A stretch of DNA of 64,000 bases from Gammaproteobacteria bacterium (GCA_027013145.1 JALUXX010000005.1:1-64000); one strand, 5' to 3'. Shown: positions 54,627 to 57,997, counted from the first letter of the stretch. Numbers and translations are program-made. The notes: generated from the letters alone by a model not told the origin.

Positions 54627-55790
54627 TTGAGTTCCCCACTGCAGCGTTCCCGGGCGTTGCGCGTCACGCCGGTCGAAGACCGGCGCGACCTCAGACGATT
54701 CCTCGGCGTCCCGCACACCATCTACCGCGATGACCCGGCATGGATTCCACCGCTGCTGCTCGAGCGGCGGGAGCACCTCTCCCGGCGCAATCCGTATTTC
54801 GAACACGCCGATTGGCGCGCGTGGATCGCGTGGCGCGGCACGCGCCCGGTGGGACGGATCACCGCACAGATCGACCGGCTCCACCTGGAGCGCCATCGCG
54901 ACGCGACCGGCTTCTTCGGGATGATCGAGGCCGAGGACCGGGCCGAGACCTTCCGGGCCCTCACCGACGCCGCCGAGACGTGGCTCGCGGCACAGGGAAT
55001 GCGGCGGGTCCGCGGGCCGTTCAGCCTGTCGATCAACGACGAGTCCGGGCTGCTGGTAGCGGGGTTCGACACGCCGCCGATGGTCATGATGGGCCACGCG
55101 CGACCCTACTACGGGCCGCACCTGGAGACCGGGGGCTACCGCAAGGCGATGGACCTGCTGGCGTACCGGCTGACGGCCGAGGCGCAACCCCCGCCGGCGC
55201 TTCGGGCCCTGGCCGAGCGGCTCGACGCCCGCGTACGCGTACGTCCGCTGCGCCGGCGCGACTTCCACCGCGAGGTGGCGATCCTGCGCGACATCTTCAA
55301 CGACGCCTGGTCCGAAAACTGGGGCTTCATCCCGTTCACCGAGGCCGAGTTCGAGGAATTGGGGCGCAACCTGCGCATGCTGCTCGACGACGATTTCATC
55401 CAGATCGCCGAGGTCGACGGCGAGCCCGCCGCGATGGCGGTCGCATTGCCGAACCTCAATGAGGCGGCGCATGACCTGCGCGGCCGGCTCTTCCCGCTCG
55501 GGTGGCTGAAGCTGCTGTGGCGGCTGAAGGTGCGCTTCCCGTCGAGCGGGCGCGTGCCGCTGCTCGGCGTGCGCAAGCGCTATCAGAACACCCTGCTCGG
55601 CCCCGCGCTCGCCTACATGGTCATCGATGCCCTCTCCGGGCCCGTGCGCCGCCGTGGCATCCGGATGATGGAGCTGTCCTGGATCCTCGAGACGAACAAG
55701 AGGATGCGCGCGATACTGGAGGATATGGGGGCCGAGGCATACAAGCGCTATCGTGTCTATGAGAAGACGCTGGCGGCCGACGGCGATTGA
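54627..55790 (+). CDS. GNAT-fold acyltransferase, candidate bacterial ceramide synthase (bCerS-like)
   Basis: 387 aa: YRDDPAWIPPLLLERREHLSRRNPYFEHADWRAWIAWR, ELSWILETNKRMRAILEDMGAEAYKRYRVYEK; divergent from SPT-cluster genes. Confidence 0.75.
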   Translation: MSSPLQRSRALRVTPVEDRRDLRRFLGVPHTIYRDDPAWIPPLLLERREHLSRRNPYFEHADWRAWIAWRGTRPVGRITAQIDRLHLERHRDATGFFGMIEAEDRAETFRALTDAAETWLAAQGMRRVRGPFSLSINDESGLLVAGFDTPPMVMMGHARPYYGPHLETGGYRKAMDLLAYRLTAEAQPPPALRALAERLDARVRVRPLRRRDFHREVAILRDIFNDAWSENWGFIPFTEAEFEELGRNLRMLLDDDFIQIAEVDGEPAAMAVALPNLNEAAHDLRGRLFPLGWLKLLWRLKVRFPSSGRVPLLGVRKRYQNTLLGPALAYMVIDALSGPVRRRGIRMMELSWILETNKRMRAILEDMGAEAYKRYRVYEKTLAADGD

Positions 55791-55838
55791 ACACCGCGCG
55801 GGCGTCGGGCGCAGCGACGGAAACGGCCGGACGGCATC

Positions 55839-56930
55839 GTGATTCTCACCCGCTACCTCATCCGCGAAATCAACAAGCCGCTGCTGGTCCTCGCGCTTGC
55901 GCTGATCGCGGTCTTCGCGGGCTACAGCACCGCCGTGTTCCTCACCCAGGCCGCGAGCGGCGCCCTGCCCACCGACGTCGTGGCCGAGCTGATCGCGTTG
56001 AAGGTCGCGATCGCACTCGAGGTCCTGCTGCCCATCGCGCTCTACCTCGCCGTGGTGATCGCACTCGGTCGGCTGCACAACGACAGCGAGACCACGGCAT
56101 TACACGCCCTCGGCGTCAGCCCCGCCCGTATCCTGCGCTCGGTCGCCGCGCTCGCCCTCGTGTTCGCGGTGCTGGTCGCGGCGCTGACCTTCTACCTGCG
56201 CCCGTGGTCCTACGAACGATCCTACCGTCTCAAGGCGTGGGCGAACGCCGAGTTCAGCCTCAACGAAATCCAGGCGGGCAACTTCAACGAGAACGCATCC
56301 GGGACCCGGGTGATCTTCGCGGCCGACCGTGCCGGCCATGAACTCGAACGGGTGTTCATGCAACGCGAGCACGGCGCGCGCACGCAGGTACTGTATGCGA
56401 TGGGGGCGCACCAGGAACACGACCCCCATTACGACGCGCCGCTGCTGCAGATGCGCGACGTCCACCTCTACGACCTCTCCCGCGACGGCGGCCGCGACCT
56501 GATCGCCCGCGTCGCCGCCCTGTCCTATCACATGAACGAGCCGCCCTTGGAACCCCTGGGCTTCGAACGCAAGGCGGCCGGGATGGCGCAGCTCGCCGCA
56601 TCGCACGCGCCGGCCGACATCGCCGAATACCAGTGGCGGCTGGCGACGCCGGTCTCGGCCGTGCTGCTCGCGATCCTCGGGATCCCGCTCAGCCGCGCGC
56701 AGCCGCGCCAGGGGCGATACGCCAAGATGCTCCTGGCGGTGCTGGTGTACGCCGGCTACTACAGCCTCGACATCATGATCAAGGCCTGGGTCGGCCAGGG
56801 CACGCTCGGAACGCTGCCGGGCGTGTGGCTGGCGCCCATGGCGCTCGCGGTCGTGGCCCTCTCCGCCTGGTGCCGGCCGCTGGCGACGATCCGCCGCCGG
56901 CTCGCGGGCGCGGCGGGGACCCCCGGATGA
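55839..56930 (+). CDS. lptF: LptF-family permease (YjgP/YjgQ)
   Basis: ILTRYLIREINKPLLVLALALIAVFAGYSTAVFLTQAASG, ALHALGVSPARILRSV, EYQWRLATPVSAVLLAILGIPLSRAQPRQGRYAKML. Confidence 0.92.
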   Translation: MILTRYLIREINKPLLVLALALIAVFAGYSTAVFLTQAASGALPTDVVAELIALKVAIALEVLLPIALYLAVVIALGRLHNDSETTALHALGVSPARILRSVAALALVFAVLVAALTFYLRPWSYERSYRLKAWANAEFSLNEIQAGNFNENASGTRVIFAADRAGHELERVFMQREHGARTQVLYAMGAHQEHDPHYDAPLLQMRDVHLYDLSRDGGRDLIARVAALSYHMNEPPLEPLGFERKAAGMAQLAASHAPADIAEYQWRLATPVSAVLLAILGIPLSRAQPRQGRYAKMLLAVLVYAGYYSLDIMIKAWVGQGTLGTLPGVWLAPMALAVVALSAWCRPLATIRRRLAGAAGTPG

Positions 56931-57997
56931 GGACCCTGGATCGCTATATCGTCGGGCGCGCGGCATTCGGCTGGGCGGTCGTGATGCTGCTGCTGGGCAG
57001 CGTATTCAGCCTGCAGAGCTTCCTCGACCAGCTCGACGACATCGGCCGCGGCCACTATCACCTGCTCGGGGCGGTGGGATTCGTCGCGCTCACGCTCCCC
57101 GACCGGCTCATCCAACTGGTACCGGTAACCGCCCTCCTCGGTACGCTCGCCGGCGTGGGCGCACTCGCGTCCTCGAGCGAGCTGGTGGCGATGCAGGCGG
57201 GCGGCGTCTCCGCGCGGCGTGTGGGCTGGGCGGTGCTCAAGGCCGGCGCGGTGCTGATCGCCCTCGCACTGGCCCTCGCCCAGTTCGTGGCCCCGCACCT
57301 GGACCGGGTCGCCCAGACCCGGCGCGCGCAGGCCATCAGCGCCGCGAGCGATCTGCGTACGGCGCACGCCTTCTGGTCGCGCGACGGCACGCGGTTCCTG
57401 AACGTGCGCGACATCCGCCACGACCGCATCCCGGCGCGCATCGACCTCTACGAGTTCGACGCCGCCGGCCGCCTGCGCACCTTCATCCATGCCCGCCGGG
57501 CGGAGGTGTTCGACCCGCGGCGCTGGATTTTGATCGACGTGGTTCGCAAGAACTTCGCCCCGGACGGTGCGGAAACGGTGGAGCACCTCCCCCGCCTGCC
57601 CTGGCGCTCGTTCCTGCGCGTCCCGCAGATGGATCTCCTGATGCTGCCGATCCCGAGCCTGTCGCTGACCGACCTGTTCCAGTACGTGCGCTATCTCAAG
57701 GCCCACGGGCAGGACGCGGACCGCTACGAACTGGCGCTGTGGAACCGCCTCGCCATCCCGCTGGCCACGGTGGCGATGATCCTCACCGCGATTCCCTTCC
57801 TGTTCGGGCCGTTGCGCAGCGTGAGCGCCGGCCTGCGCATGACCCTCGGGGGCACCGTGGGGCTCGCGTTCTATCTGATCAGCCAGATCACCGGTTATCT
57901 GGGCCTGCTGCTCGATCTCAATCCGGCCGTCACCGCGCTCGCGCCGGCCACGCTGCTGCTCGCGTTCGCGCTGTGGGCGTTGCGCCGGGTGCGCTGA
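56927..57997 (+). CDS. lptG: LptG-family permease (YjgP/YjgQ)
   Basis: LDRYIVGRAAFGWAVVMLLLGSVFSLQSFLDQLDDIG, SSELVAMQAGGVSARRVGWAVLKAG; ATG overlaps lptF stop. Confidence 0.92.
   Translation: MRTLDRYIVGRAAFGWAVVMLLLGSVFSLQSFLDQLDDIGRGHYHLLGAVGFVALTLPDRLIQLVPVTALLGTLAGVGALASSSELVAMQAGGVSARRVGWAVLKAGAVLIALALALAQFVAPHLDRVAQTRRAQAISAASDLRTAHAFWSRDGTRFLNVRDIRHDRIPARIDLYEFDAAGRLRTFIHARRAEVFDPRRWILIDVVRKNFAPDGAETVEHLPRLPWRSFLRVPQMDLLMLPIPSLSLTDLFQYVRYLKAHGQDADRYELALWNRLAIPLATVAMILTAIPFLFGPLRSVSAGLRMTLGGTVGLAFYLISQITGYLGLLLDLNPAVTALAPATLLLAFALWALRRVR

Follow-up and report, generated by a model that had tools for sequence, protein, structure and literature searches.

The window, that is, the whole 64,000-nucleotide stretch of gammaproteobacterial DNA that was analysed, encodes a candidate ceramide biosynthesis cluster that directly adjoins a pair of LptF/LptG-type permease genes (Table 1). 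The GNAT-fold gene, lptF and lptG are codirectional, with aasR running divergently from the GNAT gene. The GNAT stop codon and the lptF start are separated by a 48-bp gap, and the end of lptF overlaps the start of lptG in an ATGA (ATG 56927, TGA 56928-56930), so that the arrangement given in a preliminary description of this DNA is confirmed. Both permeases carry a full-length PF03739 match in Pfam (positions 1-348 and 1-353), and both exceed their equivalog cutoffs, LptF with 292.9 bits for TIGR04407 (cutoff 230) and LptG with 336.2 bits for TIGR04408 (cutoff 240).

Table 1. Genes of the candidate ceramide cluster and of the adjoining permease pair in the window.
Gene	Product	Coordinates	Strand	Remarks
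spt	serine palmitoyltransferase	49451..50677	-	NCBIfam NF047599 equivalog, 631.8 bits, cutoff 500
acpR	acyl carrier protein, 86 aa	50681..50941	-	DSVQ-type phosphopantetheine motif; six-frame translation, coordinates computed from translation
cerR	SDR-family ceramide/3-ketosphinganine reductase candidate	51029..52000	-	Epimerase/SDR Pfam matches; position kept in relatives; 5' end approximate
aasR	fatty acyl-AMP ligase	52009..53790	-	NCBIfam NF006624, 803 bits, cutoff 600; 5' end approximate
cerS/bCerS candidate	GNAT-fold bacterial ceramide synthase	54627..55790	+	TTG start; TGA stop 55788-55790
lptF2	ceramide-type LptF permease	55839..56930	+	GTG start at 55839; TGA 56928-56930
lptG2	ceramide-type LptG permease	56927..57997	+	ATG start at 56927

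The GNAT protein itself did not give a single family match when both the Pfam and the NCBIfam profile sets were searched. Its homologues, at about 50-60%, are found in other gammaproteobacteria and in Desulfobacterota, and this homology, together with its constant place beside spt, acp, cerR and aasR in relatives, makes it a ceramide synthase candidate. Within window 47658-59297, the ceramide cluster of this genus has a NIF3-like gene (48655) on one side and a gene for a DegQ/DegS-like protease (58035) on the other, and its G+C content of 70.9% lies slightly under the 72.1 and 72.7% of its flanks. A promoter/terminator scan returned a single promoter-like site, a weak one, in the region separating aasR from the GNAT gene, and a terminator count not above chance expectation; neither enters the argument below.

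Nearly all other clusters carry a gene of about 280 aa for an NTP_transf_3 nucleotidyltransferase-like protein directly after bCerS (e.g. L068:10191-11012), and several have a conserved gene of about 340 aa without a Pfam match between it and lptF (e.g. L073:7255-8274). The former is absent after bCerS in both genomes of the window's genus (55790-55838 in the window), and the latter is absent from the window. No head-group genes stand beside the ceramide cluster in this genus, and no ceramide-kinase-type DAGK_cat domain scored over the cutoff anywhere in the genome.

The permease genes have bCerS on one side and the DegQ/S-like protease on the other, and thus do not adjoin pepA/holC, which was correctly noted in the preliminary description. 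Family or protein searches, on which all genome-wide statements are based, revealed two lptFG pairs in the genome: the one in the window (C5) and a second one on C53. The second pair had been expected beside pepA; it exists, but it lies downstream of pnp and likewise does not adjoin pepA/holC. As lpxC and lpxB are both present, the genome should make lipid A. Just past the window's end, a kdsC-lptC-lptA-lptB-rpoN operon holds the single LptC (C5:71640) and the single LptB (C5:72786-73502) of the genome, and since only one of each is encoded, both would be common to the two pairs, in support of the LptB sharing that had been supposed. A presumed second LptC on contig C62 was discarded, as its PF06835 match is the N-terminus of LptD, encoded upstream of SurA, and the genome accordingly has no LptC2.

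The neighbourhood of lptFG and ceramide genes is widespread. Among 93 decidable bCerS loci of other genomes, which are not independent of each other, an LptFG gene lies no more than 9 kb away in 73; the remaining 20, with a flank of at least 7 kb on each side, have none. Across 370 genomes of the class, with at most five candidates scored per genome, at least four LptF/G matches were found in 14 of the 21 genomes with a strong bCerS match vs 2 of the 349 others (Fisher p=1.7e-18, with kinship ignored). The only other genome of the genus (L067) has the same gene order, and the arrangement is found in tens of genomes across several phyla. These recurrence counts argue against a chance placement of lptFG beside bCerS.

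In many relatives, pepA/holC adjoin the canonical lptFG. Genomes of Azotobacter, Pseudomonas, Stutzerimonas and Thiogranum combine such a pair with a second one in the ceramide cluster, and in these genomes the ceramide-cluster pair best matches the window pair, while the pair beside pepA/holC best matches C53. A ceramide cluster with its own lptFG plus a canonical pair was also observed in a metagenome-assembled genome titled uncultured Pluralibacter (L246/L247), whose pepA and holC are 95% and 90% identical to those of E. coli. Outside the alpha, beta and gamma classes, loci with a GNAT-type ceramide synthase occur in Nitrospirales (L102, L115, L125, L129, L130 and L136, with complete clusters), Desulfobacterota (L096, L105, L140 and L146) and Rokubacteria (L106 and L164). 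Most of these loci have an LptFG of the window's clade, and the other pair of the Nitrospirales is of a distant type; the ceramide cluster and its permease thus appear to move between phyla together.

Phylogenetic trees were calculated for LptG (107 rows), LptF (99 rows) and the concatenated proteins. The window proteins fall inside a clade of ceramide-cluster permeases both for LptG (39 rows, SH-aLRT 99) and for LptF (34 rows, SH-aLRT 98), and the concatenated tree recovers this clade with a support of 100, or UFBoot 100/SH-aLRT 99 when the same-genus homologue is included. The clade comprises ceramide-cluster pairs of gamma-, beta- and deltaproteobacteria, Nitrospirales and Rokubacteria, the sole exception by neighbourhood label being a Nitrosospira LptF with short flanks. 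The cluster pairs of Azotobacter, Pseudomonas and Nitrosomonas belong to it as well, A. beijerinckii, P. asuensis and Nitrosomonas spp. standing in for the published species. Unlike the window pair, the C53 pair falls outside, as sister to the clade in the joined trees. In AU tests under LG+G4 that included the same-genus homologue, a grouping of the window pair with canonical LptFG was rejected at p=0.0085 and one with the C53 pair at p=0.0015; without that homologue, single-gene tests included, the alternatives were not rejected (p=0.07 to 0.18). A recent duplication of the C53 pair within the genome is ruled out by the former data set (p=0.0015), with p=0.16 in the latter. Of the 40 columns that separate the two types best, 24 carry the ceramide-type residue and 1 the canonical residue in the window LptF, vs 18 and 2 in the window LptG. 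The preliminary description had reserved the reading of an ordinary LPS exporter for a lone pair that clusters with canonical LptFG; what we find are two pairs, of which the one in the window groups with the sphingolipid-cluster paralogs.

In Caulobacter crescentus, the sphingolipid cluster encodes LptF2/LptG2 (CC_1156/CC_1155) and LptC2 (CC_1168), orthologues of LptF2/LptG2 were described in Nitrosomonas eutropha, Azotobacter vinelandii and Pseudomonas luteola, and a 2024 paper, which did not study the transport itself, proposed that LptF2/LptG2/LptC2 carry phosphosphingolipids to the outer membrane (PMC11324152). The window resembles that system in having a second LptF and LptG besides the canonical pair, next to cerS and encoded together with spt, acpR, cerR and aasR. 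It differs from Caulobacter in the lack of LptC2, which is described to be absent in beta and gamma species (PMC11324152), and of phosphoglycerate head-group genes in the cluster as well as of a DAGK_cat ceramide kinase over the cutoff in the genome. It further differs in ancestry, because the alphaproteobacterial ceramide-cluster pairs form a separate clade whose joining to that of the window was rejected in a tree without Caulobacter (AU p=4.3e-6 for both genes, p=0.0003 for LptG). The likeness to the extra LptF/G permeases of alphaproteobacteria, which had been pointed out beforehand, therefore holds by analogy but not as common descent: the two are analogues rather than orthologues, and ceramide clusters recruited LptFG at least twice. 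The gammaproteobacteria were suggested to have received the sphingolipid cluster from an alphaproteobacterium (PMC11324152); for the exporter genes, these trees do not support such a transfer.

Turning to residues with assigned functions (E. coli numbering), the window pair shares fold, length and the coupling-helix glutamates with the canonical LptB2FGC system, represented by E. coli lptFG and the C53 pair, and probably uses the same LptB. These glutamates, LptF E84 and LptG E88, are kept in the window pair and in all canonical and all ceramide-clade rows. The lipid A phosphates are contacted in cryo-EM structures by LptG K34, K40, K62, R133 and R136 and by LptF R33 and K317 (PMC6744409). Unlike canonical LptG, the window protein lacks most of these basic contacts, with K34 replaced by S, K40 and K62 by D and R133 by Q, whereas R136 is kept; K41 is likewise replaced by D, and in the window LptF, K30 is replaced by S, R33 by V and R212 by L. 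The net charge at the five LptG contacts amounts to +5 in E. coli, +1 in the C53 pair and -1 in the window, and the mean is -0.08 in the ceramide clade vs +1.10 in canonical rows (p=1e-6). As several LPS-contact lysines vary among canonical LptG proteins too, the charge argument is weak. The loss of K34, K40 and K41 was dropped as a stand-alone diagnostic of a new substrate for the same variability, and K40 and K41 of LptG were reported not to be conserved (PMC5548808).

Some genomes possess one type of pair only. Neither lpxC nor lpxB was found in two bCerS-bearing gammaproteobacteria, G285 (one contig, 100% complete) and G392 (Candidatus Litorirhabdus singularis), and both have kept lptB and exactly one LptFG pair, which is of the ceramide type; in G285, lptC and lptA lie beside lptB. 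The LPS-free pattern recurs beyond the class in three genomes (G399, G622 and G634) with ceramide-cluster pairs of their own. The retention of nothing but a ceramide-type pair in LPS-free genomes is to be expected if a sphingolipid exporter works with LptB. A further genome, G113 (L083/L294), encodes bCerS and a single LptFG pair, of the ceramide type; it has lpxC but gave no match for lpxB, and is possibly an intermediate in lipid A loss. Luteibacter, Rhodanobacter, Salinisphaera and G248 have a ceramide synthase gene and solely a canonical LptFG pair, and the complete one-contig genome G510 (L255) encodes a full ceramide cluster with no match to LptF/LptG, lpxC or lpxB. Ceramide synthesis hence does not strictly require the pair. 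Either the sphingolipids of G510 take some other path to the outer membrane, or they do not arrive there.

Considering these data together, we regard the window pair as probably being an LptF2/LptG2, a dedicated sphingolipid exporter that would share LptB with the LPS pathway. Its substrate, the direction of transport and the sharing of LptA/LptD are what we infer here, beyond the observed gene order, paralogy, clade, coupling residues, single LptB and LptC, lpxC and lpxB genes, and exclusive retention of this pair type in some LPS-free genomes. The five adjacent enzymes would make ceramide or a ceramide-derived lipid that arrives in the periplasmic leaflet of the inner membrane. LptF2G2 would dock the only LptB dimer of the genome via the two conserved coupling-helix glutamates, and the sphingolipid may enter its lateral-gated cavity from the membrane. 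ATP hydrolysis would then drive it up the beta-jellyroll of LptF to the ordinary LptA-LptD bridge, with the canonical C53 pair keeping LPS export.

The main rival of this assignment is a generalist exporter with LPS as well as sphingolipid among its substrates, whose role in this genome would overlap in part with that of the C53 pair. Two genomes speak for such dual use: in G136 and G234 (100% complete, with lpxC and lpxB), the sole LptFG pair is of the ceramide type and lies inside the ceramide cluster, so that this type of pair is apparently able to serve LPS, and R136 of LptG, a residue that matters for LPS binding in E. coli, is among those kept in the window. Within the class, however, a ceramide-type pair mostly coexists with a separate canonical one, and the LPS-free genomes retain the ceramide-type pair alone; both patterns indicate a division of labour, and we consider a dual exporter unlikely here. 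The preliminary description had allowed for either variant, a paralogous permease for ceramide-derived lipids or one serving both, and the presence of two pairs and the clade of the window pair support a permease of this kind.

An ordinary LPS exporter relocated beside ceramide genes by chance would explain why both proteins are full-length and score above LPS-exporter equivalog cutoffs in a genome with LPS genes whose other pair is not beside pepA either. The very existence of that other pair, the placement of the window pair in the ceramide clade, the rejected joining to canonical LptFG and the recurrence of the arrangement over several phyla render it highly improbable. Only slightly less improbable is a pair that serves the export of some other envelope lipid or glycolipid, produced in a few lineages from ceramide or together with it, with co-regulation and co-transfer accounting for the link to ceramide. 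The genus of the window, which has no nucleotidyltransferase-like gene next to bCerS and no DAGK_cat domain over the cutoff, would fit such a scenario, but no other genes accompany the pair as tightly and as widely as the five ceramide genes do.

A lead of its own emerged at LptF position 212. Replacement of R212 lets E. coli do without LptC (PMC4986956, PMC9972910), and the mutant builds a six-protein Lpt bridge lacking LptC (PMC9972910). A basic residue occupies this position in 38 of 48 canonical rows and also in the C53 pair, yet in just 1 of 60 ceramide-type rows, and the Leu in the window sets its LptF apart from the canonical protein; most of the natural residues differ from the G, S or C of the E. 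coli suppressors. On examination of the kds-lpt operon, no lptC was found between kdsC and lptA in G136 (L293 4470-4631) and G392 (L289 4498), where the only LptFG pair is ceramide-type, while G285 and G113 do have lptC in the operon. Ceramide-type LptFG outside the Alphaproteobacteria might conceivably be a naturally LptC-independent exporter that passes sphingolipid, and LPS as well in some genomes, directly to LptA, an idea that we deem rather doubtful and offer as a lead and not as a result.

A sphingolipid LptF2/LptG2 was put forward earlier for Caulobacter, Azotobacter, Pseudomonas and Nitrosomonas (PMC11324152). What the window and its comparison add are the minimal cluster without LptC2 and head-group genes, the independent recruitment relative to the alphaproteobacterial pairs, an LptG in which most basic residues contacting the lipid A phosphates are gone, and the two genomes that combine a lone ceramide-type pair with a kds-lpt operon without lptC. 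The route of bacterial sphingolipids to the outer membrane was stated to be unknown in the 2024 paper (PMC11324152), and the window provides a compact candidate system for it, consisting of five ceramide genes and one permease pair, in a genome that has another pair for LPS but one LptB and one LptC only. Natural experiments, in the form of LPS-free genomes with only the ceramide-type pair, come from the comparison, as do residue-level predictions. As the pairing of LptFG with ceramide genes arose at least twice, a functional link between them is favoured over a single alphaproteobacterial transfer of the exporter genes.
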